Shown here in pieces: positions 10,982 through 28,025 of a stretch of 64,000 bases of DNA (positions within the stretch are counted from its first letter, which is position 1; the number at the start of each line of letters is the position of its first letter). The notes beneath the pieces were generated by a model. It was not told the origin of the DNA and made no database searches. It saw nothing but the letters and a program-made list of their open reading frames with translations. The stretch covers positions 124,001-188,000 of the forward strand of contig CANMFU010000001.1 of NCBI GenBank assembly GCA_947497295.1, read 5' to 3'. This stretch comes from an uncultured Roseovarius sp. GTDB lineage: Bacteria > Pseudomonadota > Alphaproteobacteria > Rhodobacterales > Rhodobacteraceae. The translations under genes and the position numbers were made by a program.

Positions 10982-11297
10982 GGCCTGCTCCTGCTTGTCT
11001 GACCGCCATCGCGGCGCATGTGTGCAGATTAGTGAAGGAAGGTTGAAGGGCGCAAGCGCTGTAAGACGAAAGAGATTAGTCCGCCGCCAGACCAATGTAA
11101 TTCGCGCCATACTCGGCGCTGCTGGTCCAACAACCAACACGTGCAACGGAAATGTGCATGTCAGGAGTGCAGATGTTTACTTTAGTTATGAAATATGGTG
11201 CAGCTAGAGAGAGAAACTTTGAACTCTCTCTTCGACACGCTCCTGATCTGGGAAAAGCATCTCACACAACATGATCTTAGCGATCTGGGGTGTGGTG
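10982..11297. other. Intergenic left edge of the island
   Basis: No convincing gene is present. The left half is GC-rich and chromosome-like; from about 11150 the composition becomes AT-richer. The only clear structure is the inverted repeat at 11206-11231 just before mobC. The left boundary of the mobile element should lie here. Confidence 0.6.
11206..11231. repeat. Inverted repeat before mobC, candidate oriT (or diverged left att)
   Basis: AGAGAGAG and CTCTCTCT form perfect 8-bp arms around a 10-nt loop, about 70 bp upstream of mobC, where origins of transfer of MobC/relaxase systems often lie. The surrounding 41 bp (11196-11236), read on the minus strand, also share several blocks in order with the tRNA-Thr 3' end (GTCGA, GAGAGTTCAA, CTCTCT, CACCA). 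They could therefore instead be a decayed attachment site. Confidence 0.4.
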
Positions 11298-11726
11298 ATG
11301 AGCACTTCAGATAGAGGTAACAATAAGTTAGAAACATCGCAGCGCAGCAAGAAGCTGCCGACGTTCTCACTACGTCTGACGTTCGAAGAACGGGCGCGGC
11401 TGGAAGAACTGGCTGGAAGCGAGCCGCTGGGCACGTATATCAAGCGCCGAGTGTTCAACGGCAAAGGTGGCGGCGGTAAGCGTGCGCGCTCCCGTCAACG
11501 CCGTCCGATCAAGGATGAACAGAAGCTCGCACAAGTATTGGCGATGCTTGGTCAGTCCCGCATTGCCAACAATCTGAACCAACTCGCCAAGGCCGCGAAC
11601 CTCGGCACGTTGCCGATGATGCCCGATACTGAACGCGATATCCGCCGCGCCTGTGCCGATGTTGCATTGATGCGCCGCGAGCTGCTGCGTGCGCTTGGCC
11701 ATCGCACAGATAGCGAGCCGTCATGA
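11298..11726 (+). CDS. mobC: MobC-like relaxosome accessory protein
   Basis: A 142-aa basic protein with the MobC pattern: an N-terminal ribbon-helix-helix-like segment (FSLRLTFEERARLEELAG) and a C-terminal helix with SRIANNLNQLAKAAN, typical of plasmid mobilisation proteins. It helps the relaxase nick oriT. The ATG at 11298 was chosen because TGGGG lies upstream; an ATG nine codons earlier has no site. It overlaps the relaxase gene by four bases. Confidence 0.8.
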   Translation: MSTSDRGNNKLETSQRSKKLPTFSLRLTFEERARLEELAGSEPLGTYIKRRVFNGKGGGGKRARSRQRRPIKDEQKLAQVLAMLGQSRIANNLNQLAKAANLGTLPMMPDTERDIRRACADVALMRRELLRALGHRTDSEPS

Positions 11727-13144
11727 TCCTCAAAGGCTCACAGCGTGGCGGTGCAAAACAGCTCGGGCTTCACCTTCTGAAAACCGAAGAGAACGAGCAT
11801 GTCGAGTTGCACGATATTCGGGGGTTCATGTCCGAAGATGTTGTTGGCGCGCTTCGCGAAGCCGAAGCGGTCGCCAAGGGCACGAAGTGCCAGCAATATC
11901 TGTTCTCGGTGTCGCTAAACCCGCCCGAAACCGAAAACGTCCATATCCAGTCCTTCGAGCAAGCCCTTGCCGCCATTGAGGACAAGAACGGCCTGGACGG
12001 GCAACCGCGCGTGGTCGTCTTTCACGAAAAAGAAGGACGGCGGCATTGCCATGCGGTGTGGAGCCGGATCGATGCCGAGACGATGACCGCCAAGCCGATG
12101 TCGTTTTACAAGAACAAGCTGCGCGAAGTCTCGCGCCAGCTCTACCTTGAAAACGGCTGGCAGATGCCGCGCGGCCTGATCGATCCCAAGGATCGTGATC
12201 CGCGCAACTTTACCTTGGATGAATGGCAGCAAGCCAAGCGTTCGGGCCGCAATGCCGGTGATCTCAAGGAGTTGATCCAAGAGGCCTGGGCGACCTCGGA
12301 TTCGGGCGCAACCTTCTCCCACGCGCTTGAAGAACGCGGGCTGTATCTGGCGCGTGGTGATCGGCGCGGCCATGTCGCTGTGACGTTCGAAGGCGAAGTG
12401 ATTTCCATCGCGCGGGCGACGGGTATCAAGGCCAAAGACCTTAAAGCGCGGATTGGACAGCCCGACATCTTGCGAAGCGTCGAAGACACGCGCAAGCGGA
12501 TCGGTGAAGATATCCTGCCGCGTATCAAATCGCATATCGATGAGGCGCGCGCCAAAGCCGATCAATACAAAGCGGAGCTTGATGAGCGGCGACAAGAGCT
12601 GGCGCACGGCCACCGCGAAGAACGCGTCAAACTCGATGCGGGTCAAAAGGCCCGTGCGCAAACCGAGGCGCGGCAACGGGCCGAACGGCTGCGCACGGGC
12701 ATGAAGGGTCTTTGGGATCGCTTAATCGGACAACGCGCCAAGACCCAAAAGCAAAACGAAATGGAAGCCCTCTGGGCGCTGCGGCGTGATCAGGATCAGA
12801 GGCAGGCTGTTATCACGGCCCAGCTTCAAGAGCGTCAGACCCTCCAAGACGAAATCAGAGCCGCGCGGGCGCGGCATGCCCAGGCGCTGCGCGAGATTCA
12901 TTTTGATGCAACGAATTACCGTCTGATGCAGCGCGGCCAAGAGCCCAAAGCAAGGCCGTCCTTCGAGCAGACCCGTCCGCCATCGCCGCAACCGCTGAAA
13001 GATCAAAACAGGCATCGGTTGGATCAACTCCGCGCAAAAAATGCGGAGGACGCGCGTCACGAGGACCGGACGCAGGAGCGCTTGCGCCGCCTGCGTGAAA
13101 ACAAACACGACTCCCCCGATAAAGGGCCGGAGCCCGAACGCTAG
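11723..13144 (+). CDS. Relaxase/mobilisation nuclease (MobP/VirD2-like)
   Basis: A 473-aa relaxase. The N-terminal nuclease domain (about 1-200) contains the metal-binding histidine cluster H101 and H108-C-H110 (FHEKEGRRHCHAVW). The C-terminal half, about residues 255-440, is highly charged and predicted coiled coil, rich in E, R, Q and A. It would nick the transfer origin and pilot the DNA strand. The start overlaps mobC (ATGA), so the two are coupled. No coupling protein or secretion genes are nearby. Confidence 0.85.
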   Translation: MILKGSQRGGAKQLGLHLLKTEENEHVELHDIRGFMSEDVVGALREAEAVAKGTKCQQYLFSVSLNPPETENVHIQSFEQALAAIEDKNGLDGQPRVVVFHEKEGRRHCHAVWSRIDAETMTAKPMSFYKNKLREVSRQLYLENGWQMPRGLIDPKDRDPRNFTLDEWQQAKRSGRNAGDLKELIQEAWATSDSGATFSHALEERGLYLARGDRRGHVAVTFEGEVISIARATGIKAKDLKARIGQPDILRSVEDTRKRIGEDILPRIKSHIDEARAKADQYKAELDERRQELAHGHREERVKLDAGQKARAQTEARQRAERLRTGMKGLWDRLIGQRAKTQKQNEMEALWALRRDQDQRQAVITAQLQERQTLQDEIRAARARHAQALREIHFDATNYRLMQRGQEPKARPSFEQTRPPSPQPLKDQNRHRLDQLRAKNAEDARHEDRTQERLRRLRENKHDSPDKGPEPER

Positions 13145-14605: not shown

Positions 14606-16069
14606 ATGGATATTTATCAAGAACTTGGTTTCGAGGTTGACGCAGCAATTGATGACCGGAATGTCGGTGGTATTGAGGGCGTTCTCTCGAAGATCGAGGC
14701 GCTTCTGAGTGACACGCATCCAGAAGACCCCACGCTACTTTATTTTCGGGCAAACTGCTTTGCCGGATTGAGACAAATTATTCGTACAGAAGAGGCGGAC
14801 CTATTCGACTGGAACCAGCCCGAACTGAGTCAGGAAATTCTGTCGCTCCGGCGTTCAATCCGAAGCGACGAATTTTCCAACCTGGATAGGATACGCAGGT
14901 GCCAAATCCTTACAAATCTCGGAAATGCTCTTAGCACAGTTGGCCGACCAATTGATGCAATCGCTGCTTGGGATGAAGCGCTTCGGCTTGAGCCGAGATT
15001 TGCCATGGCGAGCGCCAATCGTGCCTATGGAATTCTAAGTTACAACTCTGCGCTATACGACGCAGGACATCAATGCATATTCTTTATGGTTGCTGCGGAT
15101 AGCTTCAGGATGGCGCTGGATGATAACGCTGTTTTTGACAGCGATCATCCAAGCGATATTAAAGAGCAGTTTAGCGCCAAACTCGAAGAAGTTGAACAGT
15201 ATATGGACGTTCAATGTAAGCTTGACGACTTTAATCCCTATGGCTTCGAGCTTGGTAAGTGCGATGAAGCTATCGCGCTAAATCGATGGAGGCTTGAAAA
15301 TCGTCTGTTCCTGAACCCGTTGAACGATCTGGCGGCGTGGCCTGTTGCTGCTCAAGACGTTTTCCATCTTCCAAATCACACCTATGAGTTTGATGAACGC
15401 CCTGTTTATCCTCAATACTTCGACCTTATGAAGCAAGAATATGTTGCCGCATGTGTCCTTCTTTACGAGAGTTTGGACGATCAAGAAACGCACCTAGCTG
15501 ATCGTACGCTGCTGACTTATGAACACGCAGACTACTCAGTCACCAGCGTTCAGATTGAGAAGCGCAAGACTGCCTTTAGGATGGCCTATTCTATCTTGGA
15601 CAAATGCGCAGTCTTTATAAACGCTTACTTCGCGCTGGGTCATAACCCAAAGAGTACGAGAACATCATTCAGAAATATTTGGTTTGACGGCAAGAAAGGG
15701 GCTCTACATAGAAATTTGCCTGAAGGTAACTGGCGCCTTCGCGGCCTATACGCAATTTCGTTAGACCTCTATGATCCTCATTTTAAAGAGACATCCTCTC
15801 CGCTAGCATTGACGGCACACGACGCTCGTAATGCCGCCGAACATCGTTTTCTATCGGTTCATGAGTTCCTCGGGCCAATTGATCCTGATGAATGTCTTGA
15901 GCGCGTAACAATACATGAATTGGACGAGCTTGCCATGCAGGGCCTGAAGCTCGCGCGCGCGGCCATGATGGGATTATCATTGGCTGTCCATCACCACGAA
16001 TGGTTCCTGAAGCAGTCATCTGGCGACAAATTGATGATGCCTATTATGGCGGTGCCGAAAGAGCGCTAG
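14606..16069 (+). CDS. LA2681-type HEPN protein with TPR-like region
   Basis: A 487-aa protein. The C-terminal part (about 340-470) carries the HEPN ribonuclease motif R-x4-H as R408-N-A-A-E-H413, in a context (TAHDARNAAEHRFLSVHE) that I recognise as the LA2681-like HEPN family. An N-terminal helical repeat region, about 95-140 (LTNLGNALSTVGRPIDAIAA), resembles TPRs and may sense a partner. HEPN proteins of this type are commonly RNases in abortive-infection or toxin systems. It appears alone, without an obvious antitoxin, and its base composition is lower in GC than the backbone. The ribosome site is weak. Function in defence is inferred. Confidence 0.75.
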   Translation: MDIYQELGFEVDAAIDDRNVGGIEGVLSKIEALLSDTHPEDPTLLYFRANCFAGLRQIIRTEEADLFDWNQPELSQEILSLRRSIRSDEFSNLDRIRRCQILTNLGNALSTVGRPIDAIAAWDEALRLEPRFAMASANRAYGILSYNSALYDAGHQCIFFMVAADSFRMALDDNAVFDSDHPSDIKEQFSAKLEEVEQYMDVQCKLDDFNPYGFELGKCDEAIALNRWRLENRLFLNPLNDLAAWPVAAQDVFHLPNHTYEFDERPVYPQYFDLMKQEYVAACVLLYESLDDQETHLADRTLLTYEHADYSVTSVQIEKRKTAFRMAYSILDKCAVFINAYFALGHNPKSTRTSFRNIWFDGKKGALHRNLPEGNWRLRGLYAISLDLYDPHFKETSSPLALTAHDARNAAEHRFLSVHEFLGPIDPDECLERVTIHELDELAMQGLKLARAAMMGLSLAVHHHEWFLKQSSGDKLMMPIMAVPKER

Positions 16070-16141: not shown

Positions 16142-17050
16142 TTAAGCGGCGACTCCTTCCTTTTCCTCAGTCTCGATCACCGGCTGACATCCGTGCAGGA
16201 AATCGGCGGCACGCTGGGCATGTGCAGCGGCGCTGAAAATCGCGCGCTTGTCGTCCTTCAACACCTTTAGCCAGCTTTGAATATAGGCGGCATGATCCGT
16301 GCCCAGCTCAGGTGTCAGTTCCAGATCGGCGCAGAGGAATGCCGCGCCAAGCTCGGCGACAAGCTCTTCGCGGGCATAGCCTTCATCGCCCCAACGCTTG
16401 CGCCCAAATTCCCGATCAAGGCGGCGCTTGTGCTTGGTCCAGTGGGTCAGCTCATGGGCAAGGGTCGCATAGTAGGCTTCGGGACTTCGGAAGCTCTCAA
16501 AGATCGGCATCTGCACGTGATCGCTGCCACCTGCATAGTGGGCGTTGTTCCCGCCATGGCGAATATCCGCGCCGATATGCCCGAAAAACTTTTCGGCGTG
16601 ATCGATGCGCGTGGCAGGATCAATCACAGGCTCGGGCTTGGCATAGTAGTGCTCGGGCAAGCCTTCGATCTGCTCGACATTGAACACGCTGTATCCCTTC
16701 ATGAAGGGGATTTTGCGCTCTTCCTCGCTGCCGTCGTCCCGCTCTTCGGTCTTGGTGATGGTGTTGGCGTAAACCACCAGATTGCCGCGCTCGCCCTTTT
16801 TCACATGCGCGCCCAGCTCCTTGGCCTGTTTGAATGTCATCCAGAACGGCGAGAGATAGCCCGACTCCACCGCCGCGCCCCAAAGCATCAGGATATTGAT
16901 GCCGTTATAGGGCACGCTGTTGTGCCGCAGGGGCTTGGTAATCTTGCCTTCAAGGTTGCCGCTGCTCCACGGCTTGAGCCATGTCAGTTCGCCTTGTTTA
17001 AGATCGGCAATGATCTTGTTGGTCACTCTTTCATAAATATCGGTTTTCAT
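16142..17050 (-). CDS. ardC: ArdC-like antirestriction protein with zinc-peptidase domain
   Basis: A 302-aa protein with an N-terminal single-strand-DNA-binding domain (about 1-125, MKTDIYERVTNKIIADLKQG) and a C-terminal zincin domain. That domain has the HELTH metal site at 199-203 and a further glutamate in the REELVAELGAAF segment. ArdC proteins protect incoming conjugative DNA from host restriction. The ATG at 17050 follows AAAGGGGA; the frame runs further upstream through non-coding hairpin DNA, which I excluded. The gene is read leftward from a hairpin-dense region. Confidence 0.87.
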   Translation of the reverse strand: MKTDIYERVTNKIIADLKQGELTWLKPWSSGNLEGKITKPLRHNSVPYNGINILMLWGAAVESGYLSPFWMTFKQAKELGAHVKKGERGNLVVYANTITKTEERDDGSEEERKIPFMKGYSVFNVEQIEGLPEHYYAKPEPVIDPATRIDHAEKFFGHIGADIRHGGNNAHYAGGSDHVQMPIFESFRSPEAYYATLAHELTHWTKHKRRLDREFGRKRWGDEGYAREELVAELGAAFLCADLELTPELGTDHAAYIQSWLKVLKDDKRAIFSAAAHAQRAADFLHGCQPVIETEEKEGVAA

Positions 17051-17462
17051 CTGTTTCCCCTTTCCTCGGGTAGTCGGTTGCGCATGCAACCGGACTAGGC
17101 CCGCGCCAATGAGCGGGGGGAGACCGTCACAGACCGCAGACAGCGGAGGGGGATCGCCCGCCCTGCACAAACGAAGTGCGGAAGGACGGGGAGACCGCTG
17201 GTTTGCGCCCGAAGCCATAGCGAAGGGCTTGGTCTTGACGGAGGACGGGCCTGCAAGGCCCCAATCAAAGGAAAAAGTGTCAGCCGTTCACGGCTGGCGA
17301 TAGCTGCGCAAGGGATGGAAGCCGCATGGCCGAGACCGCCAAAGGCGGACTCGGTTTACGAGAGCCTGATCTGAAGGATGCGCACAAAAACTGTGATGCG
17401 ACTAAGTCTGTCAGCCTTGCAGCGGTGAAGCATTGGGAAATTCTAGATAAGGTCGGTACAGG
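17051..17462. other. Hairpin-dense leader region upstream of ardC
   Basis: This 412-bp GC-rich stretch holds no credible gene. It contains many short perfect hairpins: CCGC/GCGG at 17147, AAGCC/GGCTT at 17212, GGGCC/GGCCC at 17247, CAGCCG/CGGCTG at 17281, and CGAG-CCGCC/GGCGG-CTCG near 17331. The word AGGGATGGAA at 17311 recurs in the second structured region as AGGGATGCAA. The last 100 bp near the UDG-like gene are plain. It could be an untranslated leader, a single-strand-DNA promoter for ardC, or a recombination region. Confidence 0.5.
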
Positions 17463-18137
17463 TCAAATTAGTCGTGGTTGTCTTTCAGGCTTTTCAATCG
17501 AGTAAATTTTCGAAATACCTGATGCGAATTCGGCTTGACCGCCGTAGCTAGGGTGCCGAATGCTATGAACTTCAAGCTCTGGGAATAACCGACTAGCCAC
17601 CTTTGAAGCATCATTCCCAATGGCTATGACCTTTTCCGGTTTAATCAACTCTTGAATACCTTTGAGAATTTCCTCTCCGAAGCGGCGTTCGGCGGCATTA
17701 TGTGTCCGGTTAGAAAATTCATCGTTGGGCGAATGAGGATGAAACGGAAAAACATTCCACAAAAAGATGTTACGCTCAATCAAGTCAAGGAAATCCCACA
17801 CCATAGAAGCTGTTCGCTCTGCAACCGGACGTCCTTTTGTCGGTCGAGATGCTTCGAGCCCCCAGCGCTCCAAATGAGAAGAAAAACGAACATCATCTGT
17901 CAGTGCGAGCCCGGTCCTGCGGCCACCTCTATACCCCAAATCACGACCGATCCAGATCGCGTCGACTGACTTTACATCCGCGCGATTAAGCATTTCGAAA
18001 AGAATTTCGGCTCTCATATCGGCAGACTTAGAGTGATCGAAGGTTCTGCATATATCATGATAAGGATTAAATGCATTCTCGAATTCGAAGGCTTGCAGTG
18101 CACCCACAATATGCTCCGCACTTGATAGTTTGTTCAT
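17463..18137 (-). CDS. Uracil-DNA-glycosylase-superfamily protein
   Basis: A 224-aa protein of the UDG fold. Motif A is the segment IWIGRDLGYRGGRRTGLALT (62-81), and the family FPFHPH signature is at 130-135. Motif B is HPSYGG (195-200), with the catalytic-loop histidine. The usual acidic GEAPG of motif A reads GRDLG here, so activity or substrate may differ. It is the last gene of a four-gene operon, overlapping the MazG-like gene by four bases. In the cell it would excise a base from DNA. A role against phage with modified DNA is inferred from the neighbours only. Confidence 0.75.
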   Translation of the reverse strand: MNKLSSAEHIVGALQAFEFENAFNPYHDICRTFDHSKSADMRAEILFEMLNRADVKSVDAIWIGRDLGYRGGRRTGLALTDDVRFSSHLERWGLEASRPTKGRPVAERTASMVWDFLDLIERNIFLWNVFPFHPHSPNDEFSNRTHNAAERRFGEEILKGIQELIKPEKVIAIGNDASKVASRLFPELEVHSIRHPSYGGQAEFASGISKIYSIEKPERQPRLI

Positions 18138-19252
18138 GACAAAGGCCTGTAGGTTACAGTTCTCTTAGCCTTGTCACCAACGACAACGCCACCATTGTTC
18201 TTCTTGATTTGTCGAAAGACATCATATCCTTGTATGATCGCCTGCTCCCACAGGTACAAAGGACATCGTTCAACTTCGTAGCCGCGTACGAAATTACTTA
18301 CGGTCTTTAGTATATCAAATGATATTGTCGATTGCCCTTCGAAAAAATTTAGCTCTTTAGAGCAAGAAAATATGTAGGCTGACAACCCTTCCTCAATGAC
18401 AATCGCGCGCCCGCTGTCTTGTGCCTCATCAATATCGGGGTCACTCTTGCGCTTGTGCCGTATCAATGCACGAAAAGTCGGCGACCAATGTAGGATAGCT
18501 GCATGCGCAAAATGAAAAACATCGTGAAAACGATATCCATCTGGATCACCAATATTGTCGGAAAGGGGGTCGCCGATAAAAACACCCTTCCATCGAAGAT
18601 AGCTTTTTCCGTTTGGTCGTTCCTGGATTTCAATTTCAAATTTATTGGGAAGGCTTTCGTCGTCGGAGAAGGCATGATCAAACTTTGGAAGCATGGACGT
18701 GTCTGATGGGATAAATCTTCCGGTCGCCTTGTCTAAATTTGATCGCACGATTTTACCGAATGGCACATTTGAAGATTGAACGGCTTTCAGGTATGCAGCG
18801 GTGAATTCAACAACACGGGCGCGCAAATCCGCCTGGCCAATCTCAGCATTCAAAAGATTTGCTGCCTTTAGCCCCAACTCTTTCAGCAAAACATCTATGA
18901 CTTCAAGGTTTTGGAATTTATGAACCTTTGCAATTGGAGCTGACAAATGAAGGCTTGCTACTGTCATAGAAATGGTGCCTTCGCCTTTGCATGCATCATT
19001 AATTATTTGGTCCAGAGGCTCTCCAATGCGGCGGCAAATGGCACACAGATACCAAAGTGCATCGCCGAATTCTTCTTCCACCGCCGCAAGGTACGCGATA
19101 AACGCCTCGCCCTCGCGGTGAAGTTTTTTCGAAGTGGCCATGATGCTTCCAACTTCGCCAAACAGGCCAAGAAGAACAGGTGTTAGGGTATCGTTCGAAA
19201 GTCGGTCCGTCGGAGCGATTTGCTCTTCGTATTCCAATATTGTTAATGCCAT
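18134..19252 (-). CDS. MazG-like nucleotide pyrophosphohydrolase with MazG_C-like domain
   Basis: A 372-aa protein starting MALTILEYEE, with GAGG ahead of the ATG. Residues 20-80 form a MazG-type all-alpha NTP-pyrophosphohydrolase: E33 in GLFGEVGS and E61-x-x-D64 in EEEFGDALWY. The second glutamate of the first pair is a serine. The C-terminal half (about 215-340) carries the HDVFHFAHAAILHW segment and looks like the domain called MazG C-terminal. Such enzymes hydrolyse unusual or excess NTPs and have been linked computationally to nucleotide-modification conflicts. It is coupled to the UDG-like gene downstream and lies 7 bp behind the Nmad2 gene. Confidence 0.75.
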   Translation of the reverse strand: MALTILEYEEQIAPTDRLSNDTLTPVLLGLFGEVGSIMATSKKLHREGEAFIAYLAAVEEEFGDALWYLCAICRRIGEPLDQIINDACKGEGTISMTVASLHLSAPIAKVHKFQNLEVIDVLLKELGLKAANLLNAEIGQADLRARVVEFTAAYLKAVQSSNVPFGKIVRSNLDKATGRFIPSDTSMLPKFDHAFSDDESLPNKFEIEIQERPNGKSYLRWKGVFIGDPLSDNIGDPDGYRFHDVFHFAHAAILHWSPTFRALIRHKRKSDPDIDEAQDSGRAIVIEEGLSAYIFSCSKELNFFEGQSTISFDILKTVSNFVRGYEVERCPLYLWEQAIIQGYDVFRQIKKNNGGVVVGDKAKRTVTYRPLS

Positions 19253-19259
19253 GAATCCC

Positions 19260-19907
19260 TCATTTAAAAATCTGCACCCAATCCCATGGCTGCCCTTGAA
19301 CGCCATGCATCTGAAGCGACGCTATCCAGGCCTCAAATTCTTCAATAGTTTGATCGTCTTGAATTCTCGAGTAACCTCGTTTCGATTTGAGCACATCATT
19401 TGCTCCACCCTCACGAAACGGGCTTGGTAGAAGCGGACCCTCTGCACCGAAATAGATGAAATCTTCCGACACCAATATTCGCTGTACCGCCGTATCACGT
19501 GCTATATGTTCAGCCTTTGGCGATCCATCGTCTTGACTGTGATATGAATTTAATTGGTGCCAAGATCCGTCTGGAAGAGGTTGGTAAATATTATCGCCGC
19601 ACGCTTGCTTCCAGCTACCAGGAAAAATTGGCTTCTTTCGCTGAAAACGCAGGTCGTTCCAGTAATCTGCGGTTGGCAATGCTTCTTGAACGCGCATGGC
19701 ATAAACAATATGTCCGCCACGCTTTACCTGCTGACTTGAGCTTCCAGTTCCTAGTAACCAATCACCAATCTGAGCCGTCTTTCTAATACCCGGTTTGCAA
19801 GTCGCCAGCGTGCAATAGCCGCCATACGGATTTGGTGCGAAACCGCTATCATAGCGAACTACATAGGAGTAGAGGCTCTGAAGATGGGCCTTCTTAGCTA
19901 CAGGCAT
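19260..19907 (-). CDS. Nmad2-type protein (nucleotide modification associated domain 2)
   Basis: A 215-aa protein. The opening LYSYVVRYDSGFAPNPYGGY (12-31), then CKPGIRKTAQIGDW, VYAMRV and YWNDLRFQRKKP, match my memory of the Nmad2 family. That family was defined by its gene neighbourhoods with DNA-base modification. Its biochemistry is not known. The start overlaps the end of the TIR gene by 14 bp, which implies coupled translation. It is the second gene of the four-gene operon. Confidence 0.72.
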   Translation of the reverse strand: MPVAKKAHLQSLYSYVVRYDSGFAPNPYGGYCTLATCKPGIRKTAQIGDWLLGTGSSSQQVKRGGHIVYAMRVQEALPTADYWNDLRFQRKKPIFPGSWKQACGDNIYQPLPDGSWHQLNSYHSQDDGSPKAEHIARDTAVQRILVSEDFIYFGAEGPLLPSPFREGGANDVLKSKRGYSRIQDDQTIEEFEAWIASLQMHGVQGQPWDWVQIFK

Positions 19908-20370
19908 GTCGTTTGATTGGTTGAGGTTCGCAAGGCGTGCCGTCAGGATTGTTAAAGCCTTGATAGTCACCATTTACCGCATCAATGATATGGCCACCAT
20001 TCCAACCGACTACAGCGTCACCGTATTTCTCAAGCGCTTCGGGTATGTCGCACCCATTACTCCCTTGCTCCCATACCCCAACAATAGTTTTGTCTTTTTG
20101 AAATGCTCTCTCGATCTCCCAGTTCACCCAATCGCTGTCTTTTGTTTCGGGCGTAATGTAAACAATCATCGTGCTTGCCCAGTCAATTTTGGGCGCGAGT
20201 ATTTGAGATTTAATGTACTCTGGCGATGTCGCGTTGTTCGGTTTCTCAGAGTTTACTGAGCCGTCGCGAATGTCCATTCCGTTCTTCTTTAAAAGGTTCT
20301 TCAGGTCGCCAAGTCCAGCATCATCCTCGTGGATGTGGCTGATGAAGACATTCCTTGTGCTGTTTGCCAT
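19894..20370 (-). CDS. ThsB-like TIR-domain protein (MTH538/DUF1863 type)
   Basis: A 158-aa single-domain protein starting MANSTRNVFISHIHEDD. The TIR-like fold shows the first strand and SH motif (VFISHIHEDD) and the helix-preceding W-x-x-W-E motif (WVNWEIE). E85 is the likely catalytic glutamate for NAD cleavage. Thoeris ThsB proteins have this size and pattern. It heads a leftward operon with Nmad2, MazG-like and UDG-like genes, and is divergent from a second TIR operon. Sensing phage and making a signal is inferred. Confidence 0.78.
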   Translation of the reverse strand: MANSTRNVFISHIHEDDAGLGDLKNLLKKNGMDIRDGSVNSEKPNNATSPEYIKSQILAPKIDWASTMIVYITPETKDSDWVNWEIERAFQKDKTIVGVWEQGSNGCDIPEALEKYGDAVVGWNGGHIIDAVNGDYQGFNNPDGTPCEPQPIKRHACS

Positions 20371-20395
20371 CAGTTGAGCCCTTAACGCATAAATG

Positions 20396-20423
20396 TTGAG
20401 ATTTCTGATGACTACGATACTAT
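20396..20423 (+). promoter_or_regulatory. Candidate promoter for the TIR-SLOG operon
   Basis: TTGAGA and TACTAT are separated by 16 bp in the 94-bp gap between the two divergent defence operons. The leftward promoter must lie in the same gap but no clear hexamers are seen. Confidence 0.35.
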
Positions 20424-20464
20424 ATGGGGTAAGTTCGCACAACCTCGCACTGACAGGAAAACAG

Positions 20465-21715
20465 ATGCTTCCACCCGTACTCGAAGTCTATGTTATTTGG
20501 CATCCTTCGGACGTCGAGGGAGAGGCGTTGGCACGAGAATTTGTCGAACACTTCCGAGGTGTATCGTTCTCAGGCATCATAGGTGGTGGGATACACGTCG
20601 CGGCAAGAAGTGCTGGGTGGACCGGGGAGGACGACTGCCCGCAACCATGTTACCTGCCGGGTACTGAAGGCCCAAACGGTTTGGCATCTGCTGAATACGT
20701 TGCGTTGGTTCCCATACTCGGATTCGGTATGGCCGATGCCACACAAACTCAGGACTCGCCGTGGCACAGCTACATCTCAAGCTTAGTAGAACAGCAAGCT
20801 CTGAACCCGCAGCACATTGCCATTTTTCCATACTCTTTGAACAGAGGCGCTACAGATAAGACGAGACTTGCCGATCTTCTGGGGACGTTTCAACAAATTG
20901 CAGCTACCACGGAGATGTCACCAGGCGACGACGCTCTCGGCTTGAGGTGTAGGGACTTGAGTCAAGGCTTAGCCCAATTTTTGGCTGACGGTGATGATGC
21001 GCGCCTGACCGTCTTCCTATCCCATACGAAGAGAAGCAACCCCAGTGAGGGCGATGACGTTGACGTGTTGGTGGAGATGATCCGCAATTTCATTGCGTCA
21101 ACAAGGCTCAGCGAATTCTTCGACGCACATGACCTTCAGCCTGGACAAGACTGGGAGGCAGAGCTCGTCAAGAACGCCCAAAATAGTTCACTCTTGGCTG
21201 TTCGTACCGACTTGTATGCAAGCCGTGCGTGGTGTCAAAGAGAAGTCTCGGTCGCAAAAGTGTCTGGCATGCCTGTTGTGATACTTGATGCTCTCGGTTC
21301 AGGAGAAGAGCGCGGGTCATTTCTAATGGATCATGTTCCACGGATTCCATCGCGAAAGACCGATGGCTCTTGGCAGTTGGAAGACGTCGCCCGAGCGCTT
21401 AACCTGCTTACTGACGAGTGCTTAAAGCGAGAGATATGGTTAGTACAGCAATGGCTGGCTAAAGATCATGGTATTGTTTCCGTAGATTGGTGGGCATCAC
21501 ATGCTCCAGAACCAGTGACTCTGCTGGCCTGGATCGAACGGTGCATCATCCAAAAAACAAAAATTCCTGAAGAAGGAATCGTGAGAATTTTGCATCCTGA
21601 TCCTCCTCTCGGACATGATGAGATTAAAGTCTTGAGGTCTTGTGCGCGCAATTCGAAACTAGATTTCGAGATTGACATTATGACGCCCCGACAACTCGCA
21701 ATGAGAGGAGGTTGA
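20465..21715 (+). CDS. TIR-domain protein with an extra N-terminal Rossmann-like domain
   Basis: A 416-aa protein. The ATG at 20465 follows AGGAAA. The central TIR domain (about 180-275) has LTVFLSHTKRS, FFDAHDLQPGQDW and SRAWCQREVSVAK, with E260 the likely catalytic residue. The N-terminal 170 residues (VLEVYVIWHPSDVEGEALAR onward) look like a second, diverged TIR-like fold. The C-terminal 120 residues are helical. It is transcribed with the SLOG gene, whose start lies one base after this stop. It likely cleaves NAD or makes a cyclic nucleotide signal on infection; this is inferred from the family. Confidence 0.78.
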   Translation: MLPPVLEVYVIWHPSDVEGEALAREFVEHFRGVSFSGIIGGGIHVAARSAGWTGEDDCPQPCYLPGTEGPNGLASAEYVALVPILGFGMADATQTQDSPWHSYISSLVEQQALNPQHIAIFPYSLNRGATDKTRLADLLGTFQQIAATTEMSPGDDALGLRCRDLSQGLAQFLADGDDARLTVFLSHTKRSNPSEGDDVDVLVEMIRNFIASTRLSEFFDAHDLQPGQDWEAELVKNAQNSSLLAVRTDLYASRAWCQREVSVAKVSGMPVVILDALGSGEERGSFLMDHVPRIPSRKTDGSWQLEDVARALNLLTDECLKREIWLVQQWLAKDHGIVSVDWWASHAPEPVTLLAWIERCIIQKTKIPEEGIVRILHPDPPLGHDEIKVLRSCARNSKLDFEIDIMTPRQLAMRGG

Positions 21716-21716
21716 C

Positions 21717-22568
21717 ATGACGGTATCGAAACACTCCCTTTTGCCACCAAATGCACTGGAAGGTAAGGCCCTAGGAATTTCAGTTTCGGAAAGTGCTGAT
21801 CTAAAGCAACTAGGACTATTCGAAGATCATTTCAGGCTGGCTCTAGGTGATATCGCGAGAACCATCTTATTCGCGGGCGGAAATCTGTACTATGGCGGAC
21901 ATTTGCGCGCTGATGGATACACGCAGTTCTTAATTGACGAGCTGCAACGCTACGGGAACCGAAACAGGCCATTTAAGATTTGCCTCGCGTATAGCGAGCA
22001 CCAGAAAATGTCCTCCGACGATATCGTTCAACAGAAAGAACGATTGGGTTTATTTGGAGAAATAATCTTCCTAGATGAAGACGGAAACCCCAGCCAATTC
22101 TCCGAAAACAACGACCCAACCTCATATGAACCAACACAGGACGTTCTAGAAAAGTCGCTGACAGATTTGCGAATTTTTCTGGCTCAGTCTACCGACGCAC
22201 GAATTGTTCTAGGCGGAAAAAGAACTGGGTTTCTGGGCCGGTATCCGGGGATACTTGAGGAAGTGATTGTCTCGGTCAATGCAGGCAAGCCACTCTTTCT
22301 AGCTGGTGGTTTTGGTGGCGCAACCCTCGATGCGATTTCCGTTTTATCGCCAGAACATGCAGCTTGGTTCGAAAGGTACGCCGACGAGGGGGTTGATCAC
22401 AAAAAACTGGTTTCCGGGCTGGATGCACTCAATGATGCGGCAGCAAAAACCGATGGATGGAACGCAAACGGTTTGGCCCCTGCTCAGAACGCATTGTTGG
22501 CAGCAACTTATCGGCCAAGCGAGATCGCAGCGCTTGTCGGTCACGGACTAGGAAAAATAGGTGGATAG
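21717..22568 (+). CDS. SLOG-superfamily protein, possible TIR signal receptor
   Basis: A 283-aa protein with a strong GGAGGTTGAC site inside the end of the TIR gene. Two Rossmann-type glycine segments are readable: LFAGGNLYYGGHLRADGYTQ near 51-70 and PLFLAGGFGGATLDA near 191-205. That is the SLOG/LOG pattern for binding nucleotide ligands. In Thoeris the SLOG domain of ThsA binds the TIR-made cyclic ADP-ribose variant. Here SLOG appears as a stand-alone protein with no SIR2 or membrane effector fused, which is unusual. It could bind the TIR product or itself be a nucleotide hydrolase. Confidence 0.7.
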   Translation: MTVSKHSLLPPNALEGKALGISVSESADLKQLGLFEDHFRLALGDIARTILFAGGNLYYGGHLRADGYTQFLIDELQRYGNRNRPFKICLAYSEHQKMSSDDIVQQKERLGLFGEIIFLDEDGNPSQFSENNDPTSYEPTQDVLEKSLTDLRIFLAQSTDARIVLGGKRTGFLGRYPGILEEVIVSVNAGKPLFLAGGFGGATLDAISVLSPEHAAWFERYADEGVDHKKLVSGLDALNDAAAKTDGWNANGLAPAQNALLAATYRPSEIAALVGHGLGKIGG

Positions 22569-22632: not shown

Positions 22633-22719
22633 GCAGCATATTTCATGAATACAGTGGCGGGTCTATAGTTACCTCTGCGTGTGTACTTAATTTGATTATA
22701 TTCTTTGGAAGGGAACCAA

Positions 22720-23253
22720 GTGGCTACTGTTCGACGCAAGTGTTTTATTTCTTATCATCATGCTGATCGAGATTCCGTAAACAGCTTTATTCGAGCTTTT
22801 GATCACGAGCGCGATTGCTTCATTGCTCGTGGACTCGGTGAAGAAATGTCATCTGACATTATTCAAAGCACTAACACTGACTACGTGATGCGTCGTATCC
22901 GAGATAGATTTCTCGGTGGTTCGACGGTGACTTTAGTTCTAATGGGTAGGTGTACATGGGCACGGCGCTACGTCGATTGGGAGCTGCAAGGCTCGTTGCG
23001 TAGAGGAGCCAATGCTATCCCGAATGGCCTACTTGGAATCAAATTGCCGTCCTTTGGCGGCTTTCCACCACGGTTTGAAAGCAATCTCTCATCCGATTGG
23101 CCAAGGTTAGATTGCTATGCTCGCCATATGACTTATCCATCATCGACGCAACAACTGGTCGATGCGATTGAAGCGGCCTACGAACGCCGAACTAGCCACG
23201 CACATTTGATAAGCAATTCGCGCGAGCGCATGTTTAACAACAGGCAGTGCTAA
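22720..23253 (+). CDS. ThsB-like TIR-domain protein (second copy)
   Basis: A 177-aa single-domain protein. The GTG at 22720 was chosen because GGAAGGG lies six bases upstream. The TIR motifs are CFISYHHADRDSV at the N-terminus and ARRYVDWELQGSL, with E88 the likely catalytic residue. A conserved HxTYPSSTQQLVDAIEAAY-like end fits Thoeris ThsB proteins. It has its own promoter region. Loci with one effector and several TIR sensors are known in Thoeris, and this arrangement is similar. It is distinct in sequence from the leftward TIR. Confidence 0.78.
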   Translation: MATVRRKCFISYHHADRDSVNSFIRAFDHERDCFIARGLGEEMSSDIIQSTNTDYVMRRIRDRFLGGSTVTLVLMGRCTWARRYVDWELQGSLRRGANAIPNGLLGIKLPSFGGFPPRFESNLSSDWPRLDCYARHMTYPSSTQQLVDAIEAAYERRTSHAHLISNSRERMFNNRQC

Positions 23254-23337: not shown

Positions 23338-23892
23338 TTGGTCGATTATATTACCCGTTCTGACCTTCGGGGTGTCAGAACAAATCTAAATGAAGAGACT
23401 GCTAACACGATCCGTAAAAGGGCTGAAGATCGCTCGCCTCAAGGAGCGACGTTTCTCTCACATTCGAGCAAAGATGAAGAACTTGTAGTGGGTGCAATCC
23501 GCGTGTTGGAAAACCATGGTGCCACGGTCTACGTTGATAAAAAAGACCCGAATTTACCGCCTTACACTAGCAAAGAAACCGCTTCGGCGTTGAAGAAGAG
23601 GATCGGTCAGGCCGGGAAGTTTGTTCTTCTTGCCAGTGCTAATAGCAAAGACAGTAGATGGGTTCCGTGGGAGCTGGGCCTCGCCGATGGGTACAAACGG
23701 ATGGAGAATATTGCGATATTTCCTGCTGTAGATTCCACCTATGAAACGGGTTGGACATCTTGGGAATATTTGGGGTTATACGACCGTATTGTTCACGGCA
23801 AGCTAGAAGGGCATGAGGACAGTGTAATGATGGTTCTTGATGTGCGGAAAAACACTGCAACGGAACTGTCGAAATGGTTGCGGGGTTACTAG
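23338..23892 (+). CDS. TIR-domain protein (fourth)
   Basis: A protein of about 184 aa. No ATG is available at the N-terminus; a TTG at 23338 with AGGA just upstream is the best start. The TIR domain spans about 36-160, with TFLSHSSKDEELVV, the YVDKKDPNLPP loop and SRWVPWELGLADG (E112 likely catalytic). It is the last gene of the rightward cluster, with a hairpin-rich non-coding region behind it. It may act as a sensor or an NADase effector. Confidence 0.72.
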   Translation: MVDYITRSDLRGVRTNLNEETANTIRKRAEDRSPQGATFLSHSSKDEELVVGAIRVLENHGATVYVDKKDPNLPPYTSKETASALKKRIGQAGKFVLLASANSKDSRWVPWELGLADGYKRMENIAIFPAVDSTYETGWTSWEYLGLYDRIVHGKLEGHEDSVMMVLDVRKNTATELSKWLRGY

Positions 23893-25162: not shown

Positions 25163-25558
25163 ATGCTCCAGAACAATAGTCAACGCGAGGCGGGTCGTTC
25201 GATCTTCATGTCCTCAATCCACGGGGTAGCCACTACGGTTGCCTTGGCGGCGACGGTGGTGGGTGCGCCGATCATCTACAACTTCTCTATCGAATGGGTG
25301 CAGAGTTTTACAGCTCGTCAGTACGGCTATGGTCTTGAAGACTTTGCTGCTGTCGTCTGGGGCGCAACCTGTGCTTCCACCGTCTTTTTCATCGCGCGTG
25401 CATCTGTTGGGACTGCCCTTGTCATGGGCGGCTTAACGAACACATTTGAGGAACCATGTCACAGACCATTCTCTACGCCCGCGTCAGCACTGCAGACCAG
25501 AACCGTGACCACCAGAGAACACAGGCCGAGGCCGCAGGCTTCGACATTGACGACGTGA
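25163..25558 (+). CDS. Small two-helix membrane protein overlapping the recombinase gene
   Basis: A 131-aa protein with GGGGAGAGG before the ATG. Hydrophobic helices lie near 20-50 (VATTVALAATVVGAPIIYNF) and 65-97 (AAVVWGATCASTVFFIARAS). The last 34 residues run out of frame into the start of the serine recombinase gene (103-bp overlap) and look like low-information sequence. The membrane part is probably real. No function is recognised. Confidence 0.5.
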   Translation: MLQNNSQREAGRSIFMSSIHGVATTVALAATVVGAPIIYNFSIEWVQSFTARQYGYGLEDFAAVVWGATCASTVFFIARASVGTALVMGGLTNTFEEPCHRPFSTPASALQTRTVTTREHRPRPQASTLTT

Positions 25559-26094
25559 TTGCAGATCATGGCGTATCGCGTGTCAGCACTAAGTTGGCAG
25601 AGCGACCGGAGGGCAAGCGTCTCTTCGACAAACTGCGGCGTGGCGATGTTCTGGTGGTCCGTTGGGTGGATCGGCTGGGCCGCGACTATCAGGACGTCAC
25701 TGATACGATCAGGGCGTTCATGCGGCAGGGTGTCGTCGTCCGTACGGTGATCAATGGCATGACCTTCGACGGTGCCACCACAGACCCCATGCAAGAGGCT
25801 GTGAGAGACGCTCTCATTGCGTTCATGGCGGCGACGGCACAGGCACAGGCCGAGGCGACGAAAGAGGCTCAGAAGGCTGGCATAGCCGCTGCCAAGGGCG
25901 ACCCAGTGAAGTATCGGGGTAAGAAGCCGGGCTATGATCTAGAGGCGCTAAACACGGTACAAAACATGGCGGCGATGGGCAAAGGAACCACGACAATCGC
26001 GAAGGCGACGGGACTGTCGCGTCAGGCAGTCTTGAGGATCAAGGGTGACCCTGCAGCGGCTCAGGCTGCGCTTGAGAGGTGGGCAGGGACGTGA
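25456..26094 (+). CDS. Serine recombinase (resolvase/invertase family)
   Basis: A 212-aa site-specific recombinase. The catalytic serine S11 is in ILYARVSTADQ. The arginine-bearing segments RPEGKRLFDKLRRGD and VVRWVDRLGRDYQD follow, then a C-terminal helix-turn-helix (TTIAKATGLSRQAVLRI). GAGGA precedes the ATG. It probably resolves or inverts DNA within the element. Directly repeated decamers lie just downstream. Confidence 0.88.
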   Translation: MSQTILYARVSTADQNRDHQRTQAEAAGFDIDDVIADHGVSRVSTKLAERPEGKRLFDKLRRGDVLVVRWVDRLGRDYQDVTDTIRAFMRQGVVVRTVINGMTFDGATTDPMQEAVRDALIAFMAATAQAQAEATKEAQKAGIAAAKGDPVKYRGKKPGYDLEALNTVQNMAAMGKGTTTIAKATGLSRQAVLRIKGDPAAAQAALERWAGT

Positions 26095-26130
26095 TGCTTA
26101 CTGTTCATCCGATACACACTTGTCTGATTG

Positions 26131-26202
26131 ACACGCAGTGGACGGATGGTTTGTAGTCATTGGGTTGCGTTTGCTCTGCATTTATCGGCAACTCACGCAG
26201 TG
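26131..26202. repeat. Direct repeat CACGCAGTGG between the two recombinase genes
   Basis: The ten-base word CACGCAGTGG occurs at 26131-26140 and 26193-26202 in the same orientation, within the 130-bp gap downstream of both recombinase genes. Arm-type integrase sites or a resolution site are possible. Confidence 0.4.
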
Positions 26203-26224
26203 GGAGCTAGTTAAAGGCACCGCA

Positions 26225-27790
26225 TCATCTCTTTCGTAGCTCTGTCATGCGGTCGATTTCCAAACTGGAGTATCGCGGTAACTTTTGGATCTCTCGATAG
26301 AGCGCTCTTACAGTCGTTTCGCCATAGCTGGCAGTGGATCGACCATCCTCGTGTCCCTGCAACACATCCATGTACTCGGGTGGCATACCAACATCCCGGG
26401 CGATTGTCTTGAACCGATGCCGCCATGCGTGATTTGGCCAAATCCTGCTGTCAGTCACGCCTGCAGTCTCCCGAACCCATGCTCCAATCTTCTTAGCCGT
26501 GTTTCCTGCGCGGACTACAGGGTCATCCCCTGATCTCTTAGGTGTATAAAACAGAGGGCCATCGGGTTGTTCCTCAATAAAAGTGAGTAGACCAAGATCA
26601 ATAAGGTGAGGGTGAACTGGGACAATTCGATAGTTACCGTTTTTAGTGGACCCCGCTTCGGGTGTGTTACGAAGGCAGGGGATGCCGGACTCCTCAATGA
26701 GATCGCTGCGGCGTAGCTGCATGATCTCGCCAACCCTTGCTCCTGTGTAAGCGCAGATCCAAGGCCCCCAGCGAATGGCTAACTTGTTATGCTTGGCCAT
26801 CCCACCGAGTGCAGACGGCTCGCGCAACGACTCGGACAAGATCGTGAGGGCCTCAGCATCGGTAAAACCTAAGGAGCGCTCTCGTTGCGGCTTTTTGTTG
26901 TACTTGATTTTGACATTGGCAGTGGGATCACTGGCGATCTTGAACTTACTGACTCCGACACGGAACACTGCCTTGAGTGCAGCCAGATACTTGTCGCTGA
27001 CCGTCCTTGCTCCCAGTCCTTGATTGTGACGAAGGTCTTCGCACCACTCAGCCACGTTTTTTGCGGTGACGCGCTGAGCTGTTTCGTGACCCAGAAAGGC
27101 AATAAAGCTGCCGAGTTTCTGTTGAAAGTCTGAAACAGTGCGCGTCGATTTGCCTTCTGCCAAGTGGTCGCGCTTCCACAACTCGAATAGATCGGAAAGG
27201 CTAATGCCTTCCACAGCGGTATCAGTAGCGTATGACGTAGTAGACGGGGCAGGAAAGCGAGACGCCTGCGGATCTGGACTGTAGTCACCCTTTGATCGCT
27301 TCAATTGTTGTTCTGCCCATTGGACAGCCGCCGAGTGAAGCTCAACGATCAATCTGTCAAAACTTGCCTGATCAGCAGAAAGGCCTTCCTCATCCAACAA
27401 CTTGCAGGCTGAGGGGCTGAACCATTGTATACGACTTTCACTCGAGGCTCCGACCTCTTCCAAGTGGGCCAAGGCCGCTTCCCACACTCTCGGTTCGCCC
27501 GGTTCGTCGTCCAGCATTTTCATTGAGGCGCCGTAATGCTTACCGGCTAGCGCAACGAGTTGACGGTGTGGGATAGGGGCAGGGCCTTGCTTGAGCGCTT
27601 CCCAGTGCCGCTGTGCCTTTTGTAGTTCGGATGCGAACAAGGCTTTTGCGGTATGCGGGTCTTTTGTTCCGAGGGATTTCACTAGGAACTTCTTGCCTAG
27701 TAAAGCAATCACGTCGGCCGGTACGCGTACTCTCAAGTAGTACACGCCAGTCTTAGGATGCTTAGTTGGGCTGGGCATACGCAGTACCAT
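26225..27790 (-). CDS. int: Tyrosine integrase of the island
   Basis: A 521-aa phage-type integrase. The start is the ATG at 27790 (MVLRMPSPTKHPKTGVYYLR), which has AGAGGTGG upstream; the frame extends on into the tRNA gene but that part is not protein. An N-terminal AT-binding-like region and a SAM-like core-binding domain are followed by the catalytic domain. Its arginine is in AYTGARVGEI near 350, HAWRHRF is near 448 and the tyrosine is in STASYGETT near 485. It lies 78 bp from the tRNA-Thr 3' end and points away from it, as in islands that use a tRNA gene as attB. Confidence 0.9.
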   Translation of the reverse strand: MVLRMPSPTKHPKTGVYYLRVRVPADVIALLGKKFLVKSLGTKDPHTAKALFASELQKAQRHWEALKQGPAPIPHRQLVALAGKHYGASMKMLDDEPGEPRVWEAALAHLEEVGASSESRIQWFSPSACKLLDEEGLSADQASFDRLIVELHSAAVQWAEQQLKRSKGDYSPDPQASRFPAPSTTSYATDTAVEGISLSDLFELWKRDHLAEGKSTRTVSDFQQKLGSFIAFLGHETAQRVTAKNVAEWCEDLRHNQGLGARTVSDKYLAALKAVFRVGVSKFKIASDPTANVKIKYNKKPQRERSLGFTDAEALTILSESLREPSALGGMAKHNKLAIRWGPWICAYTGARVGEIMQLRRSDLIEESGIPCLRNTPEAGSTKNGNYRIVPVHPHLIDLGLLTFIEEQPDGPLFYTPKRSGDDPVVRAGNTAKKIGAWVRETAGVTDSRIWPNHAWRHRFKTIARDVGMPPEYMDVLQGHEDGRSTASYGETTVRALYREIQKLPRYSSLEIDRMTELRKR

Positions 27791-27868
27791 GTTACCACCT
27801 CTGTGTATCACCGAGGGGCTTCCAATCTGCTGATTACACGCATCTTTCTGATAATTAACAGAAAAGAG

Positions 27869-27943
27869 TGGTGCTGTGAGAGAGGATTGAACTCTCGACC
27901 TCACCCTTACCAAGGGTGTGCTCTGCCACTGAGCTACCACAGC
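27869..27943 (-). tRNA. tRNA-Thr(GGT), island attachment site
   Basis: A full cloverleaf folds on the minus strand: 7-bp acceptor stem (GCTGTGG with TCACAGC), D-arm GCTC/GAGC, anticodon stem CACCC/GGGTG with loop TTGGTAA (anticodon GGT), T-arm GAGAG-TTCAATC-CTCTC, discriminator A and an encoded CCA. The integrase gene starts just past its 3' end, so the 3' half very likely contains the attachment core. Confidence 0.95.
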
Positions 27944-28025
27944 AATCGGGCGCTGATTAGACGCTTATCGGGCTTCGTGCAAGCCTTATCTGGACCAGCG
28001 GGTGCGCCTCATGTAGAGAAGCGCC

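Follow-up and report, generated by a model that had tools for sequence, protein, structure and literature searches.

A conserved TIR-Nmad2-MazG_C-UDG operon with adjoining SLOG modules in Roseovarius, a candidate variant of Thoeris-like anti-phage immunity

A four-gene operon in an uncultured Roseovarius sp.

A stretch of 64,000 nucleotides from an uncultured Roseovarius sp. (contig CANMFU010000001.1, positions 124,001 to 188,000; hereafter the window) carries four minus-strand genes encoding a ThsB-type TIR protein, an Nmad2 protein, a two-domain MazG/MazG_C protein and a protein of the uracil-DNA glycosylase (UDG) superfamily. These genes (hereafter the quartet) form an operon and are not a set of four unrelated genes. 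We see about an even chance that they form the sensing and signalling part of a Thoeris-like system that polices 5-substituted deoxyuridine against phages.

The TIR gene (20370-19894; 158 aa) encodes a protein with a putative catalytic glutamate, E85, and a C-terminal His-x-Cys tail. It overlaps by 14 bp (ATGCCTGTAGCTAA) the Nmad2 gene (19907-19260; 215 aa, ATG at 19907), whose product, with a predicted ASCH/YTH-like (PUA-like) fold, is a candidate reader of modified bases. A gap of 7 bp separates the latter from the MazG/MazG_C gene (19252-18134; 372 aa), which shares a 4-bp overlap (ATGA) with the UDG-superfamily gene (18137-17463; 224 aa; motif A GRDLG, N128 and motif B H195PS). An earlier sequence-only reading had described these four genes with the same overlaps and gap, and the open reading frames were found where it had placed them. 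Its assignment of a ThsB-like TIR, an Nmad2 protein, a MazG_C-like tail and a UDG-like protein was borne out by Pfam, each match lying above the curated cut-off (ThsB_TIR, 8.2e-22; Nmad2, 4.5e-73; MazG_C, 1.1e-77; UDG, PF03167, 3.2e-6). PADLOC assigned the TIR protein to a ThsB profile (PDLC00418; 1.8e-68) and returned no match at E ≤ 0.1 for the Nmad2, MazG/MazG_C or UDG protein.

Conservation of the operon

A scan of species genomes for Nmad2 yielded at least 526 relatives, the best 80 of which were taken with their flanks as the loci counted below. Full quartets, defined as all four genes in order on one strand and including one locus with MazG in two frames (L041), were present in 62 of the 80. 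Since the families are rare and yet contiguous and in the same order in these loci, chance is not a credible cause of the quartet, and the notion of four unrelated neighbours was rejected. Sampling of the phylum gave Nmad2 in 6 of 398 genomes and sampling of the family in 6 of 394; for MazG_C the count was 3 of 299 sampled genomes. The TIR gene adjoined Nmad2 in 76 of the 80 loci, and the 4-bp MazG/UDG overlap recurred in 46 of the 62 quartets, with starts as set by the open-reading-frame caller. By their titles, four quartets were metagenome-assembled-genome loci from outside the Pseudomonadota: Gemmatimonadetes (L029), Binatia (L098), Nitrospira (L101) and Chloroflexi (L104). The joint conservation, whose absence would have refuted the sequence-only reading, extended from these genomes to plasmids: among 17 plasmid records with Nmad2, a TIR match adjoined it in 11 and all four genes were present in 6 (Tistrella, Cupriavidus, Beijerinckia, Mesorhizobium, Roseicitreum and Sulfitobacter, the last with two gene pairs on opposite strands).

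In half of the 18 loci lacking a full quartet (L028, L030, L033, L099, L100, L102, L103, L105, L106), UDG was absent and a 5-hydroxymethyl-deoxyuridine (5-hmdU) DNA kinase-type gene was present. Another four had a contig end inside or beside the set (L037, L062, L072, L096). The UDG gene stood about 1 kb further on in L079 and was absent from L039; L094 had UDG elsewhere and MazG on the opposite strand, L097 possessed Nmad2-MazG only, and L069 a lone Nmad2. Three loci (L016, L090, L093) contained two TIR-Nmad2 pairs each, the second pair being divergent and adjoining a large patatin-like gene.

As a counter-check free of similarity bias, the phylum and family scans were considered on their own (11 Nmad2 genomes between them, the own genome counted once). 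A TIR gene adjoined Nmad2 in five of them (own, L127, L132, L134, and L133 at a weak 41 bits), MazG_C was present too in three of those five (own, L132, L134), and UDG was recognised by profile in two (own, L133), L132 ending inside MazG. The other six (L128-L131, L135, L136) possessed a divergent Nmad2 without any quartet partner, with a thymidylate synthase-like gene nearby in L128 and a weak ThsA-type match in L131. Of the three MazG_C genomes, only the own genome had the quartet, and the other two had helix-turn-helix (HTH), ImmA-like and 5-hmdU kinase-type genes. As the partners were mostly absent around Nmad2 and MazG_C in these unbiased scans, the quartet is confined to subfamilies near those of the window and is not general to Nmad2 or MazG_C.

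Relative to the nearest relative (Roseovarius aestuarii, L027; 75-85% identity), non-synonymous divergence (dN) was 0.09-0.20 and synonymous divergence (dS) was saturated, so no dN/dS ratio is given. Distance correlations among the four genes ranged from 0.84 to 0.95 (six pairs, each with Mantel p 0.001), with 0.949 for MazG-UDG; they weigh little for function, since genes inherited vertically or transferred en bloc would show them too.

SLOG modules beside the quartet

Neighbouring genes were clustered, and Pfam and PADLOC were run on one representative per main cluster. At least one SLOG-type module adjoined 51 of the 62 quartets, including that of the window, where it is a divergent TIR and SLOG gene pair (20393-22568). 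The unit is therefore larger than the conserved four-gene operon of the sequence-only reading. In the window, the divergent TIR (20393-21715, plus strand; 440 aa as listed) matched TIR_2 below the cut-off (1.3e-5), and several of its homologues begin at the codon corresponding to 20465, giving 416 aa here; its cluster (c7) was found in 29 loci, own copies included. The SLOG protein that partners it (21717-22568, plus strand; LD_cluster2, PF18163, 3.1e-54) belonged to a cluster (c8) found in 27 loci, own copy included.

The type of module varied from quartet to quartet, with TIR+SLOG3 beside 27, TIR+SLOG2 (the window type) beside 17, ThsA (SIR2-STALD) beside 6, and SLOG-patatin beside 8, in 7 of these together with a TIR-SLOG pair. 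With profiles in place of clusters, SLOG2 was detected at 24 and SLOG3 at 28 of the 62 quartets; as ThsA and SLOG-patatin proteins also match LD_cluster2, the excess of SLOG2 was read as SLOG domains of these fused proteins. In distant genomes the modules stood mostly divergent upstream or convergent downstream of the quartet, and other arrangements exist. Among the 11 quartets without such a module, two (L082, L088) had a large patatin-like gene beside them (cluster representative at 27.0 bits against a cut-off of 27.7) and a third (L104) a 162-aa frame of the same cluster; L068 and L089 had a protein of about 225 aa (cluster c41); L060 possessed the TIR of a SLOG3 pair, with the SLOG not called; and in L057, L070 and L083 the DNA stopped within about 0.5 kb of UDG. 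No SLOG-like module was recognised among the clustered or scanned genes of L029 and L086. The c41 protein, with an N-terminal membrane helix apparent by eye and no Pfam match, was encoded directly upstream of TIR in L062, L068 and L089, also in L094, and right after MazG in L134 (9742-10431); it is possibly another swapped partner.

In Thoeris, as described in passages of PMC11204291, ThsB makes ADP-ribose (ADPR)-type signals, and 3'cADPR is bound by the SLOG domain of ThsA. The quartet resembles Thoeris in the ThsB family membership of its TIR (Pfam and PADLOC), in the ThsA found beside six quartets and in the SLOG partners of most others. It differs in that its ThsB sits in an operon with Nmad2, dUTPase-like/MazG_C and UDG genes, and in that two-gene TIR+SLOG modules, not ThsA, occurred in 44 of the 62 loci. 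Among the window quartet and its neighbours, ten proteins were scanned and none matched SIR2, macro or ThsA; a stand-alone SLOG2 protein stands beside a TIR instead.

Because SLOG-domain modules adjoin so many quartets, and because interchangeable modules beside a constant ThsB-type TIR fit what is expected of such an enzyme, the TIR of the quartet most probably makes a signal as in Thoeris, and the SLOG protein of the window likely senses an ADPR-type signal made by a TIR. A varying choice of effector is as expected of signal/effector immunity. The earlier suggestion that the TIR serves as the alarm is in keeping with this.

Residue conservation was assessed on 67 loci plus the window protein (n = 68; own copies L001 and L026 and the window slice left out), a set that was picked by score thresholds, not by adjacency; among its members are plasmid loci, a single viral one and one duplicate (L005/L048, the same plasmid). 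E85 of the TIR was kept in all 68 members and in at least 90% of a wider set of 39, and the TIR profile matched TIR/ThsB chains in the PDB. Conservation of E85 and its surrounding motif would also suit a TIR that kills alone, as an NADase depleting NAD+ in response to phage sensing by Nmad2 or UDG, with the SLOG genes as unconnected residents of the defence island; defence genes do cluster in islands. However, SLOG modules recur beside the quartet in distant genomes, and within the family SLOG2 is a rarity, with 6 positive genomes out of 394 (the own genome among them), which makes this account rather improbable.

At the C-terminus of the TIR (window 19894-19910), a terminal RHPC was found exactly in 39 of the 62 quartets and near variants of it in most others; the window protein ends in HAC followed by S. 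One guess is that this conserved stretch is a docking tail.

Predicted folds and residues of the Nmad2, MazG/MazG_C and UDG proteins

The structure model of Nmad2 resembled the ASCH/YTH-like (PUA-like) base-reader fold with middling scores. In the 372-aa protein, residues 1-183 correspond to an all-alpha nucleoside triphosphate (NTP) pyrophosphatase of dimeric-dUTPase-like type, and residues 188-370 to MazG_C, with an invariant H243, D244 and H247. The N-terminal part gave no Pfam match at E ≤ 1 from the single sequence, and its profile (51 sequences) matched iMazG/dCTPase chains of the PDB (best 7.6e-8). The modelled domain was most similar in fold to dimeric dUTPases, closer than to MazG, and fold searches with the whole 372-aa protein were filled by matches of this N-terminal domain. 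The sequence-only label of a MazG-like domain consequently stands for the resemblance to all-alpha NTP pyrophosphatases and needs amending for the fold, which is nearer to dimeric dUTPases. The metal motif of MazG and other all-alpha NTP pyrophosphatases consists of ExxE and ExxD, as checked against an iMazG alignment. Here it was incomplete: E33 and E61xxD64 were kept, and position 36 was G in 47 and S in 21 of the 68 members, so one of the four metal acids was missing in all of them.

For UDG, the altered motif A (GRDLG) pointed out by the sequence-only reading was present and conserved, with D66 kept in 67 of 68 members, N128 in 68 and H195 in 67; the H195-P-S motif B was conserved as well. 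Against the PDB, the UDG profile gave weak matches (best 0.048) to a UDG called family 4 in passages of PMC11078745.

Exchange of UDG with a kinase-type gene and the sister cassettes

Among the 80 loci, none of the 65 with UDG carried the 5-hmdU DNA kinase-type gene, against 9 of the 15 without UDG (Fisher p 2e-8, which is too strong because the loci are related). The representative of its cluster matched the helical domain of 5-hmdU DNA kinases (PF18723, 2.3e-93), and no genome, plasmid or viral locus scanned contained both this gene and UDG. UDG is swapped for the kinase-type protein among these loci. If the family name of the kinase is true to what it acts on, kinase and UDG alike would work on a pyrimidine base of DNA, and the name would indicate 5-hydroxymethyl-deoxyuridine. 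On this ground we guess that the quartet substrate is a 5-substituted deoxyuridine, most likely 5-hydroxymethyl-deoxyuridine itself or bases derived from it. The unusual-nucleotide or modified-DNA theme of the sequence-only reading is upheld to this extent.

A thymidylate synthase-like gene accompanied the kinase-type gene in five of the nine loci and was found in none of the 62 quartet loci; TIR-Nmad2 together with kinase-type and thymidylate synthase-like genes occurred in five actinobacterial loci and in L127. Thymidylate synthase-like and 5-hmdU kinase-type enzymes are known for building modified bases, and Nmad domains were themselves named from base-modification neighbourhoods. Both points favour a poisoning or self-marking role, in which the operon would be part of a pathway making or editing a modified deoxypyrimidine of the host's or the element's DNA, with the TIR as its guard against interference by phages. 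Against it stand the absence of the thymidylate synthase-like gene from the quartet loci and the fact that a UDG removes bases; we regard such a role as improbable.

The UDG/kinase exchange was also observed in cassettes without TIR, so that it occurs in two settings. MazG_C-UDG accompanied by HTH, ImmA-like and papain-like genes was present in L007, L008, L010 and L011, and the kinase-type gene with MazG_C, HTH and ImmA-like genes in L012, L013 and L014, and also in L137 and L138. Besides the HTH protein and the ImmA/IrrE-like peptidase, these cassettes often included a protein of cluster c22 (no Pfam match), and acyl carrier protein, AcpS or dCTP deaminase genes were annotated near some of them.

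The recurrence of MazG-UDG without TIR in the first four of these loci, the tight coupling of the pair (the 4-bp overlap and the highest distance correlation) and the conserved catalytic residues of UDG would fit a direct attack on phage DNA. UDG would then cut modified bases out of phage DNA, leaving abasic sites, the dUTPase-like/MazG_C protein would spare host DNA by removing the corresponding nucleotide, and the TIR would be a backup suicide arm. This has precedents in Brig1, a glycosylase with a modelled UDG fold that protects against modified phage DNA (passages of PMC11078745), and in Brig3, a glycosylase that does likewise (PMC13160076). The quartet UDG would share with Brig1 and Brig3 the excision of modified phage bases; it differs in that they act on alpha-glucosyl-5-hydroxymethylcytosine and 5-hydroxymethylcytosine, whereas its operon partners and its exclusion with the kinase-type gene point to 5-substituted uracil. 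Against a direct attack, 14 of the 80 loci (some cut by contig ends) retain TIR-Nmad2 with no UDG next to it, and the quartet is accompanied by SLOG modules, for which such an attack has no need. It is an unlikely explanation, but one to be taken seriously.

Proposed mechanism

From the gene order, the catalytic residues, the predicted folds, the SLOG link and the UDG/kinase exclusion, we infer a substrate, a trigger order, a signal and an outcome for a Thoeris-like system as follows. UDG would excise a 5-substituted deoxyuridine base from phage DNA, the dUTPase-like/MazG_C protein would bind or hydrolyse the matching nucleotide in the pool, and Nmad2 would read the modified base. The TIR would be triggered through Nmad2, its near-constant partner, and would turn NAD+ into a signal of the ADP-ribose type, to be bound by the SLOG module next to the quartet (TIR+SLOG2 in the window), which would kill or stall the infected cell. 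The precedents of Brig1 and Brig3, the validated defence domains described below and the lack of relatives in phage records also speak for this scheme.

A bolder version of this scheme may be envisaged, since a Thoeris ThsB exchanges free heterocycles and the operon pairs such a TIR with a base-liberating enzyme. The modified uracil freed by UDG from phage DNA could be swapped onto ADP-ribose by NAD+ base exchange at the TIR, giving a phage-specific adenine dinucleotide read by SLOG. Passages of PMC11204291 report base exchange with free heterocycles by a ThsB TIR; they also report that adenine was not accepted by the single ThsB tested. We consider this version a long shot.

Relation to predicted defence domains

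The domains of the quartet have already appeared in print as predicted defence parts. In the DefensePredictor paper (2026; PMC13092281), a 5-hydroxymethyluracil kinase and a thymidylate synthase are reported to be newly validated as defence domains, and the legend of Fig. 3C also lists dNMP kinase and NMAD. These validated domains recall the TIR-Nmad2-kinase-thymidylate synthase sister cassettes (L018, L024, L099, L100, L102, L103, L106, L127), whereas the quartet has UDG and dUTPase-like/MazG_C in place of the kinase and thymidylate synthase. In Fig. 6F of the same paper, MazG, MazG-C, NMAD and UDG are parts of predicted, unvalidated defence systems, and according to its authors validation is lacking for all nucleotide-modifying domains that they name there; these domain names are common to the quartet, and the word 'TIR' is absent from the main text. 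The nucleotide modification associated domain is there termed 'of unknown function', and Burroughs 2015 is cited as having predicted several of these domains. No paper naming the quartet operon was found in the open-licence literature. The candidate anti-phage system of the sequence-only reading accordingly stands, though less as a new one than as a variant of TIR-SLOG (Thoeris-like) immunity with parts already foreseen.

Viral occurrences and the carrier island

A tblastn search of 50,697 phage records gave no relative of the MazG_C, Nmad2 or UDG protein at thresholds of 1e-5 and 1e-3. In IMG/VR, Nmad2 was found at nine loci, comprising a full quartet (L108), Nmad2-MazG-UDG (L109), TIR-Nmad2 (L107) and six without an adjacent partner; among these six, L113 and L114 had UDG elsewhere in the locus, and L114 also MazG. 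A single MazG_C protein searched in IMG/VR gave two pattern matches, neither of them confirmed.

In the window, the quartet lies among genes of mobile elements. MobC and a MobA/VirD2-type relaxase (11271-13144, plus strand; PF05713, 2.3e-6, and PF03432, 2.2e-14) were followed by a TPR protein with an LA2681-like HEPN domain (14606-16069, plus strand; PF18733, 5.4e-51), likely an RNase-type conflict gene. Adjoining the quartet was a gene of anti-restriction type, with an ArdC N-terminal domain and a polyvalent-protein metallopeptidase (16142-17218, minus strand). Beyond the divergent TIR and SLOG pair stood two more TIR genes on the plus strand, one ThsB-like (22705-23253; ThsB_TIR, 1.6e-15; cluster c15, in 9 loci, own copy included) and one assigned by PADLOC to the ThsB family (23338-23892; TIR_2, 8e-10; PDLC00436, 7.5e-76; cluster c11). 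A resolvase (plus strand; PF00239, 4.5e-25) and a tyrosine integrase (minus strand) were situated by a tRNA-Thr (25456-27943, with the tRNA at 27869-27943 by ARAGORN). The integrase matched DUF6538 (1.9e-17), Phage_int_SAM_1 (6.7e-6) and, below its cut-off, Phage_integrase (6.3e-5); integrase genes of one cluster occurred in 18 neighbourhood loci. The integrase/tRNA-Thr region is likely the integration end of the carrier island. Together, the mobilisation, ArdC-type and resolvase genes and the integrase beside tRNA-Thr suggest that the quartet is cargo of an integrated mobilisable island. Its left end was not fixed, because the search for an att repeat gave no exact same-strand match of at least 12 bases between 27781-27960 and any other part of the window.

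Carriage on mobile elements, together with a dUTPase-like fold and a UDG, a classical uracil-exclusion pair, would also fit nucleotide house-cleaning or repair cargo without any role in immunity. Such a function would explain neither the TIR nor the SLOG modules, nor why every one of the 68 members lacks a metal acid, and it is very unlikely.

Implications

If the Thoeris-like reading holds, the operon would join two arms of bacterial immunity known separately so far, TIR-SLOG suicide signalling and enzymes that target modified bases of phages. A definite substrate could also be proposed for Nmad2 and MazG_C. As the candidate sensor enzymes share an operon with the TIR, what ThsB proteins sense would become directly testable.

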